64,000 nt of DNA from Calliopum simillimum (taxonomy: Eukaryota; Arthropoda; Insecta; Diptera; Lauxaniidae). The stretch is from assembly GCA_951812925.1 (NCBI GenBank), contig OX638368.1, positions 150,150,492-150,214,491 of the forward strand, written 5' to 3'. The notes below the pieces were generated by a model that saw only the letters and a list, made by a program, of their open reading frames with translations, was not told where the DNA came from and did not search any database. Positions 1,690 to 46,437 of this stretch are shown piece after piece. Numbering within the stretch: the first letter of the stretch is position 1; every line of letters begins with the position of its first letter. The position numbers and the translations under genes were made by a program.

Positions 1690-1975
1690 TTTGCATTTCG
1701 TTTGTAGTTTAACGGTTTTCGAGAAATCGAAGTTTAAAAAAAACGTTAGCACCCCACTTTTGAAATCGGTAAAACTGAAAACGCAGTTTCGTTTGAAATC
1801 GCTTGTAGTTGTTTGTAGTGATCTTCATTTCCATTTTGGGCCAACCGTTTTTGAGATATCGAAGTTTAAAAAAAAAGTTAGCCCCCCACTTTTCGGAATC
1901 ATAAAACTGAAAACGCAGTTTTATTTGCAACCGTTTGTAGTTGTTTGTAGTGATTTTCCTTTCGCTTGTAGTTCA
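1690..1975. repeat. two copies of a ~131-bp unit flanking the satellite
   Basis: Two copies of a unit containing ATCGAAGTTTAAAAAAAA, a CCCCACTTTT block and AAACTGAAAACGCAGTTT recur at a spacing of about 131 bases (around 1726 and 1857). They differ from the 142-bp unit that follows but share the words CGTTTGTAGT and TTTGTAGTTGTTTGTAGT. They look like a diverged neighbour or ancestral edge of the main array. The small open frames over them are by-products of the repeat. Confidence 0.75.
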
Positions 1976-2029
1976 AAGGATAAAAAGCTACAAACGATTT
2001 TCTAAAACTCGAAACCGGTTTTTTTTTTA

Positions 2030-3576
2030 ATATTGAATTCACCCAAAAACTAAGTAAGCAGTTCGCTTAACAATCGTTTGTAGTCGCAGAAAAACACTTT
2101 CCTCTTGTTTGAAGTTCAAAGAATAAAAAGCTACAAACGATTTTCTAAAATTTCAAACTGTTTTTTATTATTGAATTCACCTCAAATCCAAGTAAGCAGT
2201 TCGCTTAACAATCGTTTGTAGTCGCAAAAAAACACCTTCTTTTTGTTTGTAGTTCAAAGAATAAAAAACTACAAACGATTTTCTAAAAATTGAAACGGTT
2301 ATTTTTGAAGTATTAATTTTATCCAAAATCCAAGTATGCAGTTCGCTTCAGAATCGTTTGTAGTCGTAGAAAAACATTATCCTTTCGTTTGTAGTTCAAA
2401 GAATAAAAAACTACAAACGATTTTTTAAAATTTGAAACGGTTATCTTTGATATTAATTTTACCTAAAATCCAAGTTTGCAGTTCGCTTCAGAATCGTTTG
2501 TAGTCGTAGAAAAACATTATCCTTTCGTTTGTAGTTCAAAGAATAAAAAACTACAAACGGTTTTTTAAAATTTGAAACGGTTATCTTTGAAATATTAATT
2601 TTACCTAAAATCCAAGTTTGCAGTTCGCTTAAGAATCGTTTGTAGTCGTAGAAAAACATTTTCCATTCGTTTGTAGTTCAAAGAATAAAAAACTACAAAC
2701 GATTTTTTAAAATTTGAAACGGTTATCTTTGAAATATTAATTTTACCTAAAATCCAAGTTTGCAGTTCGCTTCAGAATCGTTTATAGTCGTAGAAAAACA
2801 CTTTCCTTTCGTTTGTAGTTCAAAGAATAAAAAACTACAAACGATTTTCTAAAAATTGAAACGGTTATTTTTGAAGTATTAATTTTATCCAAAATCCAAG
2901 TATGCAGTTCGCTTCAGAATCGTTTGTAGTCGTAGAAAAACATTATCCTTTCGTTTGTAGTTCAAAGAATAAAAAACTACAAACGATTTTATAAAATTTG
3001 AAACGGTTATCTTTGAAATATTAACTTTACCTAAAATCCAAGTTTGCAGTTCGCTTCAGAATCATTTGTAGTCGTAGAAAAACACTTTCCTTTTGTTTGT
3101 AGTTCAAAGGATAAAAAACTACAAACGATTTTTTAAAATTTGAAACGGTTATCTTTGAAATATTAATTTTACCAAAAATCCAAGTTTGCAGTTCGCTTAA
3201 GAATCGTTTGTAGTCGTAGAAAAACATTTTCCTTTCGTTTGTAGTTCAAAGAATAAAAAACTACAAACGATTTTTTAAAATTTGAAACGGTTATCTTTGA
3301 AATATTAATTTTACCTAAAATCCAAGTTTGCAGTTCGCTTAAGAATCGTTTGTAGTCGTAGAAAAACACTTTCCTTTCGTTTGTAGTTCAAAGAATAAAA
3401 AACTACAAACGATTTTTTAAAATTTGAAACGGTTATCTTTGAAATATTAATTTTACCTAAAATCCAAGTTTGCAGTTCGCTTAAGAATCGTTTGTAGTCG
3501 TAGAAAAACATTTTCCTTTCGTTTGTAGTTCAAAGAATAAAAAACTACAAACGATTTTTTAAAATTTGAAACGGTT
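2030..3576. repeat. 142-bp tandem satellite, about 11 units
   Basis: The anchor word GCAGTTCGCTT recurs at 2058, 2196, 2338, 2478, 2620, 2762, 2904, 3046, 3188, 3330 and 3472. Spacings are 138, 142 and 140, then eight times exactly 142. Every unit holds a perfect dyad, GTTTGTAGTT then 12 bases then AACTACAAAC. An upstream AATCGTTTGTAG can pair with the same right arm, so two alternative hairpins compete. The four near-identical 66-residue open frames on the minus strand are products of this periodicity, not genes. Units in the middle and right part are most alike, as expected for recent unequal exchange or rolling-circle amplification. Confidence 0.95.
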
Positions 3577-3858
3577 CCTTTTGTTTGGTTGTACATATGA
3601 TATGTAGTTGAAACAAAGCAAACGTTATTGTTACAAAAGAACTGGGCGAAGCGCAGTCAGCGTAGAATTTCTCGGAACTACGGTACCCATCAAAAGATGT
3701 TTTTGTTGAGGTTTGAATTGAAATATTCACTTTAAATCCAACTTTGCAATTTGTTTTAGAATCGTTTGTAGTTGTAGCAAAACGCTTTTTCATTTGTAGT
3801 TTATAAAATAGAAAGCTACAAACGATTTTTAAAACTTAAAGCGGCTATTTTGGAAATA
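3577..3858. repeat. unrelated junction, then degenerate satellite unit (left half)
   Basis: The regular array stops at about 3576. A different segment follows with the block AGCGCAGTCAGCGTAGAAT and GGAACTAC (3650-3685), which recurs at 4290-4320. From about 3718 a diverged 142-bp-type unit resumes, with the dyad still visible around 3790-3825, and is cut at 3858 by a MITE. Confidence 0.7.
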
Positions 3859-4176
3859 CAGTGAACTCGCGATATTATTAACATTTCAACATATGAACAT
3901 CCCAATAAATGAGCACTTTTCGTACAAAATATGAACTTCCTTCAAAAGCGCTAAAATATGAAGATAATTTTTTTGTCTAAAGTTTGTTTTGAGTTTTGAA
4001 TAAAAAAATATTTATTTCGAAAATAATGAAACTCTATTTCTTTCTTTTAATTCATGAGTCTTTTGTTAATATGAACAAAATAGGAGTTCATGTTATCGCG
4101 AGCACACTGCATTTCGTTAATATGAACAATCTCGCAAAAACGATTTTATTTAGTTCATATCATCGTGGGCCCACTG
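3859..4176. mobile_element. pogo/Tigger-like MITE inserted in a satellite unit
   Basis: The 318-bp segment begins CAGTG and ends CACTG, with imperfect terminal inverted repeats (ACAGTGaactCgCGATat against ACAGTGggccCaCGATga), and TA on both sides (3857-3858, 4177-4178). CAGTG-type ends and TA target duplication fit the pogo/Tigger branch of Tc1/mariner. No transposase remains. Removing the segment and one TA restores a continuous degenerate satellite unit, so the insertion postdates the array. Confidence 0.8.
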
Positions 4177-4902
4177 TATGAATTTTTCGTAAATTCCAAG
4201 TATGCAAATCCTATTAGAATCATTTGTAGTCGTAGCAAAACATTTTTTTATCGTTTGCGGTTCAATCAAAGCTAGCGTATCTGAGCCAAGCGCAGTCAGC
4301 GTAGAAATTCTTGGAACTACAACAACTAAAAGGTTCTCTTCAAGCTCCTATTAAGCTTCAGCAAAAACCAATATCATTAAACTATCCGTTTTTGAGTAAA
4401 AACAAATCAAATTTGCAAGCCATTTTCATTTCCGCACGATGTGCACCCGTTGAAATCTTTTCTTAACTGACTAAAAGTGTACTGAAAAATTTTCATTGCG
4501 TTTACACAGTCAACCTACCCATCAATAAAGTCATCAATACAGCAGAAAGTCAAAAAATTTTGTTATTCGGCAATCAGATTGTCAATACAGATTGATGAGT
4601 GTTTACATTATCAGTTTCTCATCAATCTGCATACATTCTCAGATTGATGGAAAAAAAGTGAACTTGGCATCATTGGCATATTGATGGCTACACTGTTAAT
4701 GTAAAAAGGCCTATTGGCATATTGATGGCTAGATTGTTAATGTAAAAAGGCCTATTCGCAACACTGCAGCACTGGTATTTGTTGTTTTCGTGAATAATTT
4801 TGTTGATTAGCGGATATTTGTGCTATTTGTGGATAATTATTAGAGGTAATCTTTCAAATATTACTAAAAAACACACAAACAAAAAACTATTCAACGCATA
4901 AA
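4177..4902. other. satellite remnant and 5' flank of the BTB gene
   Basis: The right half of the interrupted satellite unit runs to about 4262, then the second AGCGCAGTCAGCGTAG copy (4290-4320). From 4480 to 4750 short inverted words around ATCAATCTG and CAGATTGAT repeat. A 41-bp direct duplication (ATTGGCATATTGATGGCTA from 4672 and 4713) follows. The last ~100 bases before 4903 would hold the promoter and 5' UTR of the BTB gene; I see no clear TATA box. Confidence 0.6.
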
Positions 4903-5823
4903 ATGGAGAAAACTGAAGAATCTTCTTGGCAAAGCCTCGGCCTAAGTGACGCCCTAAACCATTTGTTCAAAACGGGGCATTTATCAGACATCAGCATCTG
5001 TGTTGGCGCCGACGATAGTCACCAGCAGATTTTCAAATGCCACAAATTTGTATTGGCTTGTGGCTCGCCCTACTTTGAAGCCATGTTTTATGGAAGCGAA
5101 GATTCCGTAGAGAAAAAGCAAGCAGAGATAAAAATTTTGGATATTGAACCAGATGATTTTAAATTCTTTCTGGATTACGTTTATGGAAGACGTGAAATCA
5201 AGAATTCCGATGAGTTTTCAATTGAGACTCTACAAAGCTTTGTGTACATGGGGCACAAATTTTTGCAGACAAAAGGTTCAAAATTCGGAGTTGGTGCGAT
5301 TACAAATGCTTTATCTAAACTACGTCTTGTTAATCTTATAAAGCTTTTTGGTTCGGTTATTGATGTGGGCCATAAACAATTGGCTTCAGTTGTTTCTGAG
5401 GAACTCAAATCAGTAATAGCAGAGACGACCACTTTTAATCAGGCTCTACTGAACTTCGATTTGTCTACATTCATTGAATTTTTAAATTGTATTGACGAAA
5501 GCGTTACCGAGTATACTCGCTTTAATTGGGCAGAAGAATACATCAATCAAAATGGTCTTTTTGTAGAAGACTCAAAAAGTAAATCAGATAAAACAGAAAA
5601 TAAAAAAGAAGAAGGTGCTTTATATCAACCAGAACAACAGAATGGCAAGGCTCTTCCAAATTGGATGATGCTATTAGAAAAAATACGATTTGAAGATATG
5701 TCAGTTAATGAACTATGCGAAGGGCCATTAAAATCGAAACTACTTAAATTGGAGAAAAAAAACGAAATCCTTGTTAAAAAATGCAAGCTTTTGGAGAATC
5801 TAAGCGAAGATGAGGATAACTAA
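4903..5823 (+). CDS. BTB/POZ domain protein, single exon
   Basis: Encodes 306 residues with a clear BTB/POZ fold at about residues 22-125: LSDISICVG, then the hallmark FKCHKFVLACGSPYFEAMFY and a DDFKFFLDYVY helix. BTB domains mediate homo- or hetero-dimerisation and, in BTB-BACK proteins, often recruit substrates to Cullin-3 ubiquitin ligases. Residues ~130-220 are helical and look BACK-like. There are no Kelch repeats, zinc fingers or MATH domain. The C-terminus (about 277-300) is Lys/Glu-rich, likely coiled-coil, ending in an acidic SEDEDN. The start is chosen for its good fly context (AAAATG) and because an A-rich leader precedes it. An AATAAA lies about 97 bases after the stop. No intron is visible, so this could be a retrocopy or a short BTB gene. 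Existence is near certain; the exact family member is not assigned. Confidence 0.92.
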   Translation: MEKTEESSWQSLGLSDALNHLFKTGHLSDISICVGADDSHQQIFKCHKFVLACGSPYFEAMFYGSEDSVEKKQAEIKILDIEPDDFKFFLDYVYGRREIKNSDEFSIETLQSFVYMGHKFLQTKGSKFGVGAITNALSKLRLVNLIKLFGSVIDVGHKQLASVVSEELKSVIAETTTFNQALLNFDLSTFIEFLNCIDESVTEYTRFNWAEEYINQNGLFVEDSKSKSDKTENKKEEGALYQPEQQNGKALPNWMMLLEKIRFEDMSVNELCEGPLKSKLLKLEKKNEILVKKCKLLENLSEDEDN

Positions 5824-5919
5824 TAATATTGTAAAGAAAATGCATGCACATCATATTTGAAGTTTGAAAAATGCAACTATTTAAAAGAATTGCAAACTTT
5901 ATGTAATTAATTTTGAATT

Positions 5920-5925
5920 AATAAA
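5920..5925 (+). terminator. poly(A) signal of the BTB gene
   Basis: AATAAA lies about 97 bases after the BTB stop codon, a typical distance for a fly 3' UTR. Confidence 0.7.
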
Positions 5926-5929
5926 TCCT

Positions 5930-6200
5930 TATATATCTACCGATTGGTTTATTTATAATGGTGGTGAAAGAAATATGAGACTTTAGCATCAACGGAGTTG
6001 TCTTAAAGTTAAGCTATGCCTGATTCGTTCAGTGATCAGAGTGATTTCGATCATAACTGAAGGGAACGCAACAAAAGGGCTTATCACTTTCGGATCAGCT
6101 GAATGTTCTTGCCTTTTTTCGGCGAGCTACCTCTTTAACCTTAATTTTAACTTCGTATTCATGTTATAGATGTATGCTTGATGATAATTTTAAGAGTCTG
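5930..6200. other. short intergenic stretch
   Basis: Downstream of the BTB poly(A) signal. Nothing recognisable before the inverted-repeat element at 6201. Confidence 0.5.
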
Positions 6201-6663
6201 TCTATTCGTGGGGACTCGTGTACGCGAAAGCTCAAATTAGCGTATGCAAAAAAAGCTTTCGGAAAACTTGCGTACGCGAAATCCAGTGAAGTTTTATCCT
6301 CCGGGGCCAGTTTCGTTACGCATGATTAATTTAGCGTGCGCGAAATGTTGCGTACGCTATAGTGCATATTAGGAAGTGCAGTACAACTACTACAACAGTT
6401 ATTTTACATAAAAGTAGGGGTAAGTGGGAGGCCTGCGGCCGCAGCTCAGGATTAAAAACTGTCAGACATCCAACACTGGCTTCGCGGCGGCCTTCGGCCG
6501 CGGATCAGTATATAATATATCCAACACATAGTTTGCTAGCCAAATTGCGCGCAGCGCCCCTTCGGGGGAAATAACTTCTATTGATTTCGCATACATAAGT
6601 TGTCCGAAAGCTTTTTTCGCGTACGCTAATTGAGCTTTCGCGTACGCGAGTCCCCCCGAATAG
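6201..6663. mobile_element. inverted-repeat element with CGTACGC-rich ends and GC-rich core hairpins
   Basis: The two ends match in inverted orientation over about 80 bases: CTATTCG, GGGACTCG, GTACGCGAAAGCTCAA, AAAAAAGCTTTCGGA. The repeated word GCGTACGC recurs along both arms. The core contains three strongly GC-rich dyads unlike the AT-rich surroundings: CTGCGGCCGCAG (6433-6444), GCGGCC-TTC-GGCCGC (6487-6501) and CCCC-TTC-GGGG (6557-6567). No transposase is present and no clear target duplication is seen. It is a non-autonomous DNA element or foldback of unknown superfamily. The 70-residue open frame at 6362-6574 is not protein-like. Confidence 0.75.
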
Positions 6664-23092: not shown

Positions 23093-24966
23093 GTAAGTAA
23101 GTAAATTTATTGAGCCTTTAAATCAATAACAATAGTACATAATAAAAATAGTAACGGTGGAAGGATACATAGAAGATATAATATATATGCTATTACAGTG
23201 GAGTCTTGCAAAATGCTAACAGCAATATTATTACTGATGGAAAAATCAAAAGCTTGCTCATGGCTTTTTGAAGTATATTTGATGTTTTATCAAATAACCT
23301 TAAATCTAAATAACTACAAACTATAAATACTATTTACTCTATATACATATATACACTTAAAAATTACGTTACATTAAGTTTATATTAGCCTCTGTGTGTT
23401 CCAGGGCGTTTTTTCGTGAAAAATTCCAGCAAAAGTAATGCGGGATTCATACCAGATTCTTAATCAAGACTTTCGTTTATAATGCCTACAGGCGATATGT
23501 AAGCAAAGCTAGACCAATTGAATTCATTTTGAGAGTTATATACCGAATTTATCAAATCGTTTTCTATATAGGGAAGTTTGTTAACACATTTTTTTAAATG
23601 CACAAGCAAATATTTACACAAAAGGACAATGCGAGAATGACTGTAGATATAGAAATTGGAGTATCTTTCCGTAAAAGATTCAAAGTTGCGATCTAAGCAG
23701 AATCTTAAAATTTTACGTGCAAATTTTTCAAGACTCTGTGCAACTGTTGGTGAGATAGTGAACCAAATCGGAAACCCATACATTATCACTGAACGGATGC
23801 TTACCTTGTAAATTAATAATTTAGTGTTTATTGGCATATATTTATTCCTTAATAAGTTGGAAAACATTCCAGAAATTTGGCGTGCTTTCTTTAAAATGGC
23901 ATTTGCATGCTTATTGAATTTTAACAGATTGCTGAAAGTTACACCTAAATATTTAATTACATTTTTGAAAGGAATAATTGTTCCATTTAGTGATAATTTT
24001 AACCTTTTACTTTGAGGAACTGCTTTCCAGTGACATTTTCCTGAAGGGTTTCTGATGCAAATGGCTTGCGATTTGGCTGTATTAATTTTGATCCCCCAAT
24101 CTTTATAAAAACTGTTAATTTTTTCTAAGTGTACTTGTACCAAACTCAAAGCCTCTTCTGGAGTGTTACCGTGAGCATAAGCCAGCGAATCATCTGCGTA
24201 AAGAATGCATGTTGAACCGTTAAAAGTATGCGGAAAATCGTGAATGAAAGTACTATAGAGATGAGGAGCCATTATTGCACCCTGTGGGACTCCACTTCTT
24301 ATAAAGCTATATTCTGAAGAAACATGATTTATATTTACAAAAAACTTTCTATCATTTAAAAAGCTATGTAAAATTTTTATGAACGACGGACCAATGCCAA
24401 TAAGCTTATAGATAATACCATTATGATAAGCCTTGTCAAAAGCTTTTTCTATATCCAAAGGCATTGCAACCGTGCATTTCCGCTGCCGAAGGTTAAGGAT
24501 TAAGTCATTTTCAAACTTTAAAAGAGCATGCACAGTAGAATGCTGCTTTTTAAACCTAAATTGAAAATCTGGAATGTATTGAACGTCAACACATTCATCC
24601 ATTTTATCCAAAATTACTCGTTCAAAAAGTTTCCCGATATTTGATAGTAAGGAAATCGGTCTGAAGTTATTGACTTCATAACAATTTGGTTTCTTCTGAA
24701 TTGGAATTACTTTAGCAATTTTCCAGGAATTAGAAAAATAACCATTGTTAATACAATTGTTGAAAATTATTGCTAAAAAATCAAAAATTAATTGGGATGG
24801 TTTCTTCATAAACCCTTTCAAGATGACTTCTTAAGACTTCAACTTTCTCGACGTCATCGGTAATCACAAAGTCATCCTGAACAATTTTTGAGCAAAAATG
24901 TCCACTCTTCTTTTTCATTAATTTATATATTTGTTTAATGCTGTAGGACCAGGTTTTATAAGTTTA
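23093..24966 (-). mobile_element. 5'-truncated Jockey-like LINE with 14-bp target duplications
   Basis: The insertion is bounded exactly by GAACACCACTGTAA on both sides. On the minus strand the 3' end finishes in a TTAC-repeat tail instead of poly(A). It keeps most of the reverse transcriptase but lacks ORF1, the endonuclease and the N-terminal part of the RT. Perfect target duplications and a long open frame suggest it is relatively young. Confidence 0.92.
23460..24821 (-). pseudogene. non-LTR reverse transcriptase, partial (453 residues)
   Basis: Contains RT motifs in order: NNFRPISLLSNIGKLFERVI, catalytic Asp motif LDIEKAFDKAYHNGIIYK, SGVPQGAIMAP (residues ~195-205), catalytic LYADDSLAYAHG and the thumb-side VIKYLGVTF. 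The long C-terminal tail has no RNase H. These fit a Jockey-clade LINE. Upstream minus-strand sequence (KSGHFCSKIVQDDFVITDD) belongs to the same polyprotein in another frame; the conserved region before motif 1 seems to be lost by an internal deletion at about 24815. The RT domain is open, but the element is incomplete and cannot be autonomous. Confidence 0.9.
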
Positions 24967-29263: not shown

Positions 29264-30667
29264 AATAAGTAAGATCCTTATTAATGGGTTTTAATTCATT
29301 ACTTTTCAGCAGATTTCCGTTACTGGCTTGCATTTTGTGTGTATCCATTTTTAATTTCGATGTTTTGAACATATAAAGGATTTTAAAAAATGCACTAATC
29401 TTATCTATAATAATGCAGAAGTGGGTGGAATGGTGTAAAATAATTCATGACAATTGAAAGTGATTTGGAATAAATCAGTAAGAAAATTTACATTTTTATG
29501 AATTTTTCAGGACTCAGTATTTTAATCTTAATTTGATTGGAAAAATCATAAAAAAAATTGCCATATCCCAATGTGCACAAAAACGGATGAGGATCCGTTT
29601 CGAATCCATTACGAGTTCATAAAGGTATAAAAAACGTAATCCGCGGTAACGGATCCATTTCGAACCCGTAACGTACATCAAAAACGAATTCAAAACGCTT
29701 TGTTTGGATAAAAAAAAAAAACATTTTGAAGCGCTTATTAGCGAATAAAAAAAAATTCAATTCCGCAGTGCGGGCCCGTTTCGAATCCGAAACTTATGTA
29801 AAAACGAATTCAAAACGGATTTGCTTTTGAATATGTTAATGTTGTATATTTACAGAAAAAAACCGTTTTGATGCGCCTATTAGCAATTAAAAAATAATTA
29901 AAAGAAAAAAAGGAAGAAAAATAAAGGGTAAAAATCCACCTCTGGCAGCCCAATGTGCACAAAAACGGATGAGGATCCGTTTCGAATCCATTACAAGTTC
30001 ATAAAGGTATAAAAAACGTAATCCGCGGTAACGGATCCATTTCGAACCCGTAACGTACATCAAAAATGAATTCAAAATGCTTTGTTTGGATAAAAAAAAA
30101 AAAAACATTTTGAAGCGCTTATTAACGAATAAAAAAAAAATAAATTCCGCAGTGCGGGCCCGTTTCGAATCCGAAACTTATGTAAAAACGAATTCAAAAC
30201 GGATTTGCTTTTAAATATGTTAATGCTGTATATTTACAGAAAAAAACCGTTTTGATGCGCCTATTAGCAATTAAAAAATAATAAAAAGAAAAAAAAGGAA
30301 GAAAAATAAAGGGTAAAAATCCACCTCTGGTAGGATTCGAACCTGGGCAAATCCGTTTCGATTCCGTAAATACTTCAAATACGAACTCAAAACGGATTTG
30401 CTTTATTTAATTTTTATGATAAAAAAAATATTTTTGATTTGTTTTTTTTTTCTTTTTATTTTATTGCGTATGATTTTATGTAAACTTTTCAAACTCTGTT
30501 TGAAAAAATGTATTTGATTCCAAATTTGAGTATATAACATTTTTTATCAAAAGAAGGGAAGAAAAACAACAGAATACTTATAAAAAAACAACAGAAATTT
30601 GTTTAATATACAAACTTTAAATCTCAACATCAAATAAGTGTACATCAGTTAAGTAAACATTATATCG

Positions 30668-38937: not shown

Positions 38938-39226
38938 ATATGGGCATTCCTCAGAAACTTTTAACCTATAGTTATCGTCAAGTTTTAATGTCAAACACAT
39001 GTCATGTCAAACACCTTAGATGCATTTTATTCAAATTGTATTGATTTTTTGTGAGTTTTTTGTGAATGCACATACTTGTTAATGTTTGAACAATATGTCC
39101 GCGGCCCAATATTCACAAAAAATCATTACTATTTGAATTAAATGCATCTAAGGTGTTTGACATGACACGTGTTTGACATCAAAACTTGACAACTACAGGT
39201 TAAGAGTTTCTGAGAAATGCCCATAT
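38938..39226. repeat. foldback with ~97-bp arms
   Basis: Left arm 38938-39036 and right arm 39131-39226 are reverse complements (AAACACCTTAGATGCATTT, GTCAAACAC), with a ~94-base spacer. Confidence 0.85.
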
Positions 39227-39472: not shown

Positions 39473-40476
39473 TTTTGCGTTATATTAGTACTGAATCAAT
39501 GTAGTAGGACATTATATATATATGGGGTTCAGTTTTGGGCCAAAAGTTCATCAGAGGAAATATTATCTTTTTACTATTTATTTCTTTTGAAATATTAACG
39601 AAATGACTTAAAAATCAAAAAATCTTCAGTAAAAAACAATCGAAATGATTTATTTTCTCACATTACCCATTGCATTACATGTAAGTAATTGAAAAAGTAT
39701 TTCATTATTTATTGCATTACAAATTTATTCAAAAGTTTTATTGGGCTTATGAGTAGGCACAGTGACGTGTTGACCATAAAATTACGATAACTCATGAACG
39801 GTGAGTCACCCATTTGAAGTTAAAATACCTATTTATAGGGAATTACTTGCACTACGTATAGTTCAGGAGATATTTTTTCAAAAAACCTAAAATTTAGAAA
39901 AAAAACTTTTTCCAAAATATTTCCAAAACTGTTCGTCCTAAAAAAAATTATGCATTTCACGAAATCTATTGAAAGAGGAAACTTATTTCATTGAATTTAA
40001 TGAAACTTTAATGAATATTTTTCACAAAAGTTTCAATTAATTCAATGCAACAAATTTTCATTTCCATTGAACTCCTAAATCGCAAAACATACTATTTTTT
40101 CTTATTTTTCATACGAAAGGTGATTTTTTTTTGCTTTCCAAAGGATATATTTTGGAGTACAAAAAAGTAGGTGACGGAGCGTTTTTAGTTGTTAAGTACT
40201 AAAGTAGTAGTAAATTTAGTACTTTAAACCAAATTCGAAAAAATTTGCTTTGGGCTTATAGCCTTAATCAAAACCTTTTTAAAAATTTTTAAGTGTGTTA
40301 CTTAATGACATTTATATATTGAAAATTGATTTTTAATTGAATTTTTAGTCATATATTTGCAAAGATTGATTTAAATGTAAATCTATCAATGCATTTTCTA
40401 ACACATGATTATGACAAATCAAGGAATCAATTATAATTAATTTAGTGAAAAAAATATAATTATAATTACAACAAAA
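39473..40476. other. AT-rich non-coding DNA upstream of the ribozyme
   Basis: No coding sequence or element boundary is recognised. It is examined because any retroelement carrying the ribozyme should flank it; nothing like a reverse transcriptase or GIY-YIG endonuclease can be read. Confidence 0.5.
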
Positions 40477-40523
40477 ATAGTCTGATGAGTCTTTGTGGCG
40501 AAAGACGAAACATATGTCACTAT
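40477..40523 (+). ncRNA. hammerhead ribozyme (stem I open, minimal stem III)
   Basis: All parts of the hammerhead fold are present in order. Stem I: ATAGT (40477-40481) pairs with ACTAT (40519-40523). Core CTGATGA is at 40482-40488. Stem II: GTCTTT (40489-40494) pairs with AAAGAC (40501-40506) around a 6-base loop. GAA is at 40507-40509. Stem III: ACA (40510-40512) pairs with TGT (40515-40517) around a 2-base loop. C40518 is the cleavage position, preceded by GT as in the usual GUC triplet. Very short stem III hammerheads of this kind are known from schistosome and newt satellites and from Penelope-like retroelements, where they may act as dimers. It would self-cleave multimeric or read-through RNA. 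No host element is recognised around it. Confidence 0.9.
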
Positions 40524-42138
40524 AGCCGTGTTTTTAATCCGTTCCAATCAATTTTCTTATTCAATACCTTTTCAAAAATGGTCTTAGCATGAAAAGTGGT
40601 TAAAAATTTTTCCGCTTTTTGTATCCTTCCACAATCCACAAAAAAGTCACTTTTTTGGCATTTCTATCAGATTAGGCATGAAACGAAACTATGTACAAAA
40701 TTTTAGCGAAATCGGAAGGAGTGTGGCAAGTCTTGTTACGCTAGGCATGGAATGGCTGTATATTATTATTGAAACTAAAATGAAACTTTTCTATCCTACT
40801 TTTATCTTAAAAATCCGTACACTTACGGAAAAAAATTTTTAAAAATATACGATTAAAAAAATTTTTATACACATTTGCAGTGAAATTTAAACGAGTTGAA
40901 ATGTCAACGCAAATGTTACACATTACAGAGTGTATAAAACAACCAAGTTGACTTGCAATTAAAATCAAGAACCTTTAAAAATGCCATTAAATGTTAAACA
41001 AGATTTTCAGTGATATTAACGATACGGATGTTTAAGAAAAAAAAAGGGCGCAAGCAGATCCATGTTACGATGATAAGAGAAAATTTCAACTGAAAATGCG
41101 CCTGCATGTACAATTTTTATTATCTAGGACATTTTTTTTTTTTGTAAAAACATTAAATGAAGGGGCTAAATCGGAGCGTACTTTTTGTTATAAACCATAC
41201 CCAACTATAAAGATTTTAAAGATTTCACATTATACAGAAGCAACAGAAATGTTATTAAATTCGTAATAAAATGTCACATTTTTTTTATCATTTCTTACTA
41301 ACACTTGCTGACTTCTGTTGTAACATTTTTGGTTAAAAAATAAAAAAAAAAAAAATCAAAACCTACGTGTAATTAAAATTTATATTTTAAAGAATAAAGT
41401 TGTATGTAAGTACTATAATTTTTCCTCTGTAGCTGCCGCTTTTTCCATTAAAATTGCTATTCCAAGAGAAAATCCATTATTAATTTTTTTACTTATTAGT
41501 GAAGAATGCTTTGCTCATGCGCAGCAGGAGCTGTATGAGTGCGCCTCATTAAGGTACCCAAATGATTTTAATTTTGTGCTTCTCTTTTTTGTTGTTGTTG
41601 TTGTGTTACAATAATTTTAAGTAACACCAACACTTTTTTTATGTGCGCAGGTAGTTCTTTGAAATAAATTATTCTTAAAAATGTTGCTGTTTTTATAGCC
41701 TGTTTAGATAAAGTATGTAGCTCACATTATTATCTTGTAGTTTTTTTTTTATCACAGCATGATTGTGAAATGATATAATAGGGTCATCAATCACATGACG
41801 TTTACTATATGTTGTTATTCCATTCAAATCAAGATATATTGCCGTAACAGCAGATTTGTTTGGCTGAATACATTTGTTTAAAGAAAATCTGCTGGAATAA
41901 AGGCGAAAATTGCCAATGATCAGCTACGCTTTATTGGCATGGTGCTGTAAGGCAGACCAAGCAAAGGCTTTAAAGGAACAAAAGATCTTAAGAACAGTCA
42001 TTAAATGGGAATTAGTACACGCGTTTATGCTTATAACTTTTTCATAAGAAAAGAATTTAAATTTTTTGATCAGGATAGCTTTGGAAAACATGTCAAATAC
42101 TATTTTGTTGAATAAGTTATCAGTTTATTTACGAAGAA
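40524..42138. other. AT-rich non-coding DNA downstream of the ribozyme
   Basis: No gene. Includes an A13 run near 41340 and GTTGTTGTTGTTGTG near 41590. Confidence 0.5.
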
Positions 42139-42669: not shown

Positions 42670-43042
42670 CAAAATCAATAATATGTTTTTTAATCTTATT
42701 TCTTTTTTAATTTGGATTAAATTTGAGTTAATAAACTATGAACTTTTTGAAAATTAACACTCTGGTTACTGAGATGTACATATTTATTTTGTATGTACAA
42801 ATTCCTAATGACTCACTCCTTATATTTTTGTAAATATAATGCATTAATTTAGGAACAAAACTAAACATCTAAATTGTTTTAAATACGGTACTGAAAATAA
42901 GCTCGATCCTAAAGACATTTCATACAAAAATTTAACTTTAGTGTGTGAAATTCTCACTCTCTTGCCATATTTATCTTCCGAAATTAAAGTTTTGAAGTAA
43001 ATTAAACTCGATTTCGAGTGTGCATTCGTACTACAAACAAGA
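42670..43042. other. non-coding DNA between two transposon relics
   Basis: Nothing recognised. Confidence 0.5.
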
Positions 43043-43044
43043 TA

Positions 43045-43829
43045 CAGCTATGGAAAAAGAAAAAGCACGATTGAGTTTATTTAAAAAAAAAATGTATATT
43101 AGTTAGTTTGTTGAATGAATATGTTTGGATTATTGAAGTGAAAATCAATTTATCAAAATTGATGGCAAATTGGACCAATACGGATATGATGCAGCCATTT
43201 TCATTTGATTCCATGTTAGCTAATTGGATCTTCATGCAGGATAATGATCCAAAGCAATAATGATTAGTGCAAAACTGGGTAGAGGCTGAAAAAATCTAAG
43301 TTTTGGACTGGCCAGCTCAAAGACCTGATCTAAACCCAATAGCGAACCTTCTGAATTATGTAAAAAATATTATTTTGCAGAAAAACTATAAAAATATGGA
43401 AGAAATTTGGGCAGGAATTCGAGAAAGCTTGGTATTCCATTCTAAAGAGCAAATACAAAAATCTTGCGGAGAGCTTGTCTCGTAGATGTCGCGAAACAAT
43501 CAAAAATCGTGGCCACAAAATACTTACTTTGTAAGTAAATAATTACAAGTTGTTTTAAGCAGGTTATTCAATATGGTTGCTTTCCTTTTCCACAGGACTT
43601 CACAAGTTTGCTATTCCTGTTTCCAGGTGCTTCTGCATCTTCAAACGCTAAAATGACTTTAACAGAGCTAAATGAAGGAAAATATTTAAAGTAAGTGAGT
43701 GGTTTTTTTAAGCCTATGCACGCCAAATTAATTTTTACTTCAATAATCCAAACATATTCATTCAACAAACTAACTAAAATACATTTTTTTTAAATAAACT
43801 CAATCGTGCTATTTCTTTTTCCACAGCTG
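43045..43829. mobile_element. Tc1-like element with ~108-bp inverted repeats, internally deleted
   Basis: Ends CAGCTATGGAAAAAGAAA and complement are flanked by TA (43043-43044, 43830-43831). The inverted repeats run ~108 bases (AGCACGATTGAGTTTATTT, GTTGAATGAATATGTTTGG), longer than usual for Tc1 but known in Tc3- and Bari-type elements. It keeps only the C-terminal transposase. Confidence 0.92.
43220..43540 (+). pseudogene. Tc1-like transposase C-terminal fragment
   Basis: The plus strand encodes FMQDNDPKQ (second catalytic Asp), then after a stop and frame change DWPAQRPDLNPIANLLNYVK and SRRCRETIKNRGHKI. The catalytic Glu of NPIEN is replaced by Ala (NPIAN). The DNA-binding domain and first Asp are deleted. 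Confidence 0.85.
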
Positions 43830-43831
43830 TA

Positions 43832-46437
43832 TACATATAACCAATAAGATTCACTGTAATTGCCAAATTTTGCAATTGATATTCAATTTTATTCAAAAAT
43901 AAGTTATTGAACTTTGTCTAGCGACTTTAATCTCAGGCTTCTGCCTGATATATATTTTGTAGGTAATTATAATTACATTTACAAGTTACAAATCCTTGAA
44001 ATTTTACTAAAGTACTCCATAATTTCGTCATTGAATGTTGTTTTGATGATTTATTGACTGAGATGTGGAAAAATTTCAGGTCTCAGGTCCCAGTTCTCAG
44101 TTTCTGGAATATTTCAAGATCTTGTTTTTGTTTTTTAGTAGTAAAAATCATTGGGTTTTAAAAAATAGCGCTGAATAAGATTATGAACCTTAGGTATTCA
44201 GTTTCAAAAGACCAATTTTGAAAGCCCATAAAATTTTATTTTTTTAACCTGCCCGTCTTAGATAAGTACAAAAAAGACCTGAGCTGAACTAAGACTACTT
44301 ATCGGAAAAATTTTGTGCCGAAAATTAAGTGTTTTCCTTCCTTCATGAGTAGAATCGCCCAAATGAAACCTCGATTTTTTCTGAAAAAATTTAATTTTTC
44401 TAAAGCAGTGTGTTATGATATGATATTTGCCAATAAATACTTAATACTTAAATACTTAAAGTTTGATGTAAGCTAAGAATTTTTGAAAAAACATTCTTTC
44501 TTAAAAAATTTAAAATAATTGCCAAAAACCAAAAACAAACTAGGGCTAAATACTCCCGCATTTTTAATGAGAAGCATTGGTACTAAAATATTGCGAAATT
44601 TATACCGGCAACATAAAACGTTTCAACTGGCACACTTGGTGCATTTGACTTCATATGTATTTTTGTCTATATTTTCGAATAGGGTAACTTTTTTAGCTCT
44701 TTCGAAAATATCCACCCTATTATATAGCTCTACAGACTATTAAATGGAATTATTGCGAAAAGATCGAATTTCTAACCTTTAAGCTAAATCAATTAGAGAC
44801 TCAGCAATAAACTGAGCGCATCAAAATTGAGCAGCCTAAACGGACGAGAAGCACTCATACTTTATGATTAACTTGGGGCGATACCAACTGGCCAAAAACA
44901 ATAGCAACAACATTACTAAGAACATCAACAATACACACAAACACGATAGGACACACGTACGACCCTAAAGTGCAAATAAATATTAGTTTATGTTCCACCC
45001 AAAAAAAAAAAGTGAAGAAAAACGGCTTAAAATGAATGACGCTGAGTTGCAGTTAAACTTCAAATTCACCAGCGAGTAAACTCCCTAATGGTAGGTTTCG
45101 AAGTAACGAATACAATAAGTGAAATTCTAAAAAAAAGCAGTAGAAAACAACAACAATGAATGTAATGTGTAGCCCAAGATAAATGTTGTGCTAATTTGAA
45201 TTTAATTATAGCCCAGTTATGAAGAAAAGCCATTAACACATGATAGGGGCTGGACAGACAGACATACAAATACTTACATAAGTGGACGGACGAATGAATA
45301 AAACTAAAGTCAGTGCAAAAGTATAAATGCTTGAATAGTAAGCAGGACAGACATTCGGCCATGTTTTGCAAATATTTTGACTTTAAATTGCAAGAAAAAA
45401 AAGTAGGCGTTCAAGGCATGCGGACCATTATAGTTGAGTAGTGTTGGAAAGTGTTGGAAAGTTTAAGAAAAGCATCAACTTTGCAGTCTTCCTTTAAGTA
45501 CAATTTAATGGGTAAAATGCTGTCCAATGATCTTTGAATCCAGTATATGTTCTGAGGTAACCAATTACATAAAGCATTAAGTTTTTGATTTTTTAGATTT
45601 CCGTTGAGTCACTAACATATTTTGAGTTTAAATTGTGCTCTGATAGCTGTTTTTTCATCGAGTAGGCTTATTGCTACATTGGAAAGTGTGCAGGATTGAT
45701 CACACAAACTCTTTGAAAAAATATCTAATGGCTGCTAACAGGCAACTCTATCATTTGCAATAAAAACTTATTGACTAGCATCTACTATGGTTTATTCCAG
45801 TCTAGGCTTCAATATGGCCTGATGTGCTGGGGAGGCGCAAATTTCAATAAAGTTAAGTTCTTTGTTTTTCAGTCTCTCCATTATGTTCTTATAATGAACT
45901 TTGTTTCAATTACGTATTTTAATAAAGTAACAAGATTCTGATAGTGGATTTTGTTAAAGCGGACCAAAAAAATATTTATGTGTTTCGGCGTTTTGAAAGT
46001 TTACATCTGAATTTTTTTTAGGGGGGTCAAAGTTTCGACAAATCGATATATTAAACGGTACGATTCATACATCTGAGATGTTCCAAGCATTCAACAAACT
46101 TTTTTTAGGATATTACAAGGAATATTTTTGTGGAATTTTGATGCCTTTAATTTTTATTAATTTGAGTTAAAATAAATTACACTGTACATTTTAACATTTT
46201 TCAAATAGAATGACTTTCTATTGACGCTTAAAAGTTGCTATATATCGAACAAAACATAAAAATCCACAAAAATTAACGATTCAGAATAGTCTCAGAATAC
46301 TTTTTGTATACTTTCATTAACCCATTTTGTGCCGCGCCAAATTTTTTTCGAATTTACAATTGAAAGTAACATTTTTAAACTAAAATGGACCTAAAAAAGC
46401 CGAATCTGTTCTCCAAAAAATTGTATATATAATAGTT
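43832..46437. other. AT-rich non-coding DNA
   Basis: No gene; several 60-100 residue open frames (44519, 45066) lack any domain or coding character. No repeat boundary recognised. Confidence 0.5.

Follow-up and report, generated by a model that had tools for sequence, protein, structure and literature searches.

The hammerheads of Penelope-like elements, described by Cervera and de la Pena in 2014, are reportedly of type I with a short stem III, as in the motif presented here, and in the account attributed to Lunse et al. 2017 they are said to cleave as dimers. Minimal and classical type I hammerheads have already been described in animal non-coding DNA (PMC7761336), and type I hammerhead repeats are known in insects too (PMC7229834). 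Newt and viroid hammerheads have a described dimer mechanism (PMC6155905), and one has been suggested for Penelope elements (PMC7761336). For the hammerheads of Aedes, which have a palindromic stem/loop III, a dimer has been proposed as a hypothesis, and the Aedes RNA that was assayed showed no cleavage (PMC3088659). For most type I hammerheads of invertebrates, a stable helix III and good monomer cleavage are described (PMC7761336), which counts against a dimer mode. In one Penelope-like element, cleavage was dispensable for transposition in vitro, and RNA-seq ends at the site were not found (PMC11167929).

The motif lies in a 64-kb stretch of DNA from the fly Calliopum simillimum, called the window in its entirety, and occupies 47 bases at 40477-40523 of the forward (+) strand, where every core base can be read directly from the sequence. 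Stem I pairs ATAGT (40477-40481) with ACTAT (40519-40523), and between these strands follow the catalytic core CTGATGA (CUGAUGA, 40482-40488), stem II (GTCTTT at 40489-40494 with AAAGAC at 40501-40506, six Watson-Crick pairs around a GTGGCG loop), the core GAA (40507-40509), and stem III, ACATATGT (ACAUAUGU, 40510-40517), a perfect palindrome, all on the + strand. Both core segments are placed alike by sequence, by the Rfam alignment, and by a custom covariance model, and stems I and II consist of Watson-Crick pairs only, 11 in all. By the general rule that hammerheads cut 3′ of C17, the predicted cleavage site falls 3′ of C17 of the GUC triplet, at 40518/40519 (+). The elements CUGANGA, GAA, A15.1-U16.1, and H17 are all present, in type I order. 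An earlier note on this DNA had listed a 5-bp stem I, CTGATGA, a 6-bp stem II, GAA, and GUC in succession at 40477-40523, and each was confirmed in that order.

The three helices are open at stem I, which is the topology of type I, and stem III has only 2 bp as a monomer. In one molecule this stem can form at most 2 bp with a 4-base AUAU loop, and in two molecules 8 bp; the 3-bp stem III of the earlier note had to be corrected, since its loop of 2 bases would be too small. Palindromic ACNNNNGT words make up 15 of 149 in the window in any case, which counts against the reading favoured below. By eye, GGC in loop II (40497-40499) could pair with GCC at 40525-40527, a candidate tertiary contact between stem I and loop II. 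An extended stem I was considered and rejected, because 502 of 2000 shuffled flanks pair equally well.

Rfam returned no match over the whole window at gathering score. With a 301-base stretch as query, Hammerhead_1 (RF00163) gave a full-length alignment to exactly 40477-40523 at 21.5 bits (E 0.0072 against 4227 families), which falls below the gathering cut-off of 34 bits for this family. A relaxed Rfam run over the whole window (E up to 10) did not have Hammerhead_1 among its listed matches, presumably because it was dropped by stricter filters, and its only hammerhead row was Hammerhead_3 (40455-40516, 22.7 bits, E 2.7). This type III reading was rejected because the full set of type I pairs would go unused in it. 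A RAGATH-1 match in the 301-base stretch (16 bits, E 3.3) was likewise set aside. The earlier note would have counted the lack of any covariance-model hit against the motif; this lack holds for Rfam at gathering score, but not for the sub-threshold Hammerhead_1 match or for the custom model. Judged by sequence and pairing, the motif is a type I hammerhead, though it lies under Rfam's own cut-off, and annotation based on Rfam would miss it.

The custom model started from the pattern CTGANGAGTC...GACGAAAC...GTC, which collected 94 stretches from viral contigs and 61 from prokaryote genomes and required a stem III longer than that of the motif. Stretches with paired stems numbered 37 after removal of near-duplicates, and the covariance model was built from 23. 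The collected genome loci are titled as bacteria, archaea, or their assembled genomes, and no collected stretch, viral or prokaryote, is shown to be related to the window. A corrected pattern gave 28 stretches in viral contigs, with a stem I of more than 2 bp in 0 of 29 rows, and viral-contig patterns using the motif's own stem III found no stretch. With the model of 23 hammerheads, the motif scored 42.2 bits (E 1.1e-12) and was the sole match in the 64 kb at E up to 10, in a comparison that is partly circular, the pattern positions having been chosen after the motif and the Rfam consensus were seen, and with E-values that are rough owing to a short calibration. The control consisted of 71 loci that bear the pattern but whose contiguous stem I does not exceed 2 bp; among the 113 matches in them, 12 scored above 42.2 bits. 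Of these 12, five sit in L177 and L165, two viral contigs in which matches recur, so the control set itself holds apparent real hammerheads. For a smaller control, 26 of the 71 loci were picked by eye; its 27 matches all stayed at or below 34.6 bits, a flattering outcome to which we give no weight. The score of 42.2 bits places the motif within the range of real hammerheads, and no more.

Some of the collected loci deserve separate mention. Repeated hammerhead-like matches (E up to 10) occur in the viral contigs L165 (nine in 3.4 kb, 2991-6428), L177 (six), and L160 (five). In L165, one match directly follows an ORF at 3085-3411 and another precedes an ORF at 3846-4151, a placement that suggests possible processing of transcripts between genes. 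Among the prokaryote loci with the type I pattern, 25 of 61 (within L098-L154) are titled Legionella or Legionellaceae, and most of them share nearly the same hammerhead.

For the pattern CTGANGA..CGAAAC..GTC, the window has one occurrence where 0.02 are expected, and two of 100 shuffles contain it. A loose descriptor, which allows G-U pairs, covers both strands, and sets minimum lengths of 5, 6, and 3 bp for stems I, II, and III, was run on order-2 Markov sequence of the window's composition. It gave four matches, two of them sharing one core, in 1.6 billion simulated bases, equivalent to 3.2e-4 per window or about 5 per gigabase; in the window itself, on both strands, the motif is its only match. 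The Rfam E-value of 0.0072, scaled by hand, corresponds to about 6 such chance matches per gigabase. For a strict Watson-Crick consensus with CGAAAC, GUC, and a 6-base loop, the expectation is about 5e-9 per window and about 8e-5 per gigabase, assuming independent bases and with a descriptor fixed post hoc, after the motif had been seen. For one window, chance does not account for the motif, and in the strict form the same is true of a genome; in the loose form, a few chance occurrences would be expected in a large genome. A chance resemblance, in which AT-rich DNA matches a hammerhead descriptor without ribozyme descent, is in our estimation unlikely. It would agree with the Rfam score below gathering, with the type I match missing from the relaxed whole-window list, with the single copy in the window and the absence of a recognised element around it, and with the rate of the G-U-allowed shape, given that a scan covers many windows. 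Against it stand the 11 of 11 Watson-Crick pairs combined with CGAAAC, GUC, and the 6-base loop, as well as the score from a model of natural hammerheads.

The computed energies favour a two-molecule over a one-molecule hammerhead, although each is surpassed by another fold. The monomer hammerhead has -4.0 kcal/mol, against -6.7 kcal/mol for another monomer fold. The double hammerhead of two copies reaches -19.8 kcal/mol, since ACAUAUGU is self-complementary over 8 bp, a palindromic arm duplex that alone accounts for -7.0 kcal/mol. The best dimer fold, at -21.0 kcal/mol, retains the palindrome and drops stems I and II. Compared with shuffles, folding showed no excess stability, with 100 of 200 shuffles as good for 47 nt and 167 of 200 for 91 nt.

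We favour, with confidence somewhat above even, the explanation that the motif is a true type I hammerhead and most likely derives from a hammerhead-bearing repeated element of the fly, of which it would be a lone dispersed copy or a remnant. We infer transcription, cutting, and origin alike. The RNA of the motif, if transcribed, would cut itself between 40518 and 40519 to give a 2′,3′-cyclic phosphate and a 5′-OH. With its 8 palindromic bases, stem III is barely stable within one molecule, and cutting would therefore be expected to be poor in the molecule alone and better in a double hammerhead, whose stems I and III would be common to two copies, carried either by one tandem transcript or by two separate transcripts. 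The source element may have been a retrozyme-like tandem repeat or a Penelope pseudo-LTR. It is highly improbable, in our view, that the motif is a single-locus hammerhead outside any mobile family that works only when two transcripts meet; if it were, cutting would depend on RNA concentration.

The surroundings of the motif have a GC content of 28-31% and look non-coding. They hold transposon debris, in the form of a fold-back, a DDE transposase remnant, and a jockey-like reverse transcriptase. The fold-back is a 289-bp palindrome at 38938-39226, 83% self-complementary and MITE-like, with a match to a microRNA family model below cut-off. The DDE transposase remnant (43300-43482; DDE_3, E 0.016, below cut-off), which we take to be mariner-like, is adjoined by an inverted repeat of about 110 bp with 94% identity (43042-43151 and 43725-43832). 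The reverse transcriptase is encoded by an ORF of 453 aa at 23460-24821 (-); among its relatives with a named organism, the best come from Lucilia cuprina, Bactrocera latifrons, and Haematobia irritans, in keeping with DNA of a fly. Elsewhere in the window, a satellite-like tandem array occupies 1953-3576 (142-bp unit, 11.5 copies, 93% matches), a 384-bp unit is present in two tandem copies at 29567-30330 (96% matches), and an imperfect hairpin of about 225 bases at 51573-51797 matches MIR7533 at 79.9 bits, below the cut-off of 230. A BTB protein search gave one relative.

A host-domesticated solo copy, which might for example cut an intron or an untranslated region, would fit a motif that is intact and solitary in the window, and a host role of such a kind has been suggested for conserved amniote hammerheads (PMC7229834). 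No gene was located around the motif, and the monomer is predicted to be weak; we regard domestication as very unlikely.

The earlier note had seen only one copy in the window, and the same count was obtained by pattern, descriptor, similarity, and custom model. The interpretation given in that note is borne out in part: the type I hammerhead is complete, its weak stem III is of the sort described for animal elements, and the DNA around it is fly-like in character. The suggestion that the flanking 1-2 kb may be a decayed or undescribed retroelement with self-cleaving RNA is plausible, but local tests found no retroelement in the flanks. Within the favoured explanation of a dispersed copy or remnant, two source elements can be distinguished. 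The motif may come from a short, retrozyme-like tandem repeat (about 150-400 bp) spread via circular RNA, as one monomer or as a relic; we hold this as a tentative reading at less than even weight. Its type I fold, low GC, and the presence of a stem III agree with this origin, and retrozyme-like repeats have been reported in insects (PMC7229834). For animal retrozymes, however, arrangements from dimers up to large multimers are described (PMC7229834), and no tandem repeat over the motif was found in the window, nor any direct repeat of at least 16 bases overlapping it within 38.5-42.5 kb. Stretches similar to the motif region elsewhere in the window amount to at most 18-base matches (E 0.022 or worse). 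Target-site-like flanking repeats were rejected because their counts are near expectation (longest exact match 11 bases, AT-rich, one against 0.61 expected; ten-base matches four against 1.8). A search of phage records with 38-42 kb gave no match.

Alternatively, the motif may belong to a Penelope-like element, the coding region of which would have decayed or fall outside the ORFs searched. Such elements carry minimal type I hammerheads, some of them in pseudo-LTRs (PMC7761336, PMC11167929). The interval 36.5-44.5 kb, however, has 42 stop-to-stop ORFs that reach 50 aa, and a Pfam search of 20 of them gave no match to a reverse transcriptase or GIY-YIG domain. The reverse transcriptase of the window, at 23.5-24.8 kb, is jockey-like and 16 kb from the motif, and Penelope hammerheads usually do without the non-conserved helix III bases that the motif has (PMC7761336). 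A Penelope origin is possible and, on balance, doubtful. Finding copies of the motif would show the carrier element.

The present motif was not found reported in the literature consulted. The type I hammerheads of interspersed repeats in Aedes aegypti (Perreault et al. 2011, PMC3088659) resemble it in their dipteran host and apparently in their type I order, and both have a palindromic stem/loop III that is fully pairable in a dimer. The dimeric stem III is of 10 bp in Aedes and 8 bp here, a comparison made by description and not by sequence, and the Aedes motif is multi-copy, whereas the present one is known from one copy in the window (PMC3088659). Metazoan non-LTR retrozymes (Cervera and de la Pena 2020, PMC7229834) share with it the type I fold and low-GC surroundings, and those of some hosts also the weak helix III, but they sit in short tandem repeats, of which none lies over the motif in the window. 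The hammerheads of invertebrate retrozymes mostly have a stable helix III, unlike the motif, and those of Penelope-like elements are usually without the extra stem III bases present in it (PMC7761336). By these comparisons, the motif is of an ordinary class, one more type I hammerhead of a kind known in many animals. The hammerheads of D. pseudoobscura, Musca, Rhagoletis, and Hermetia are of type III and open at stem III (PMC7936874), whereas the motif is open at stem I, and it adds a well-formed type I hammerhead to the DNA of higher flies, in which the published examples found are of type III.
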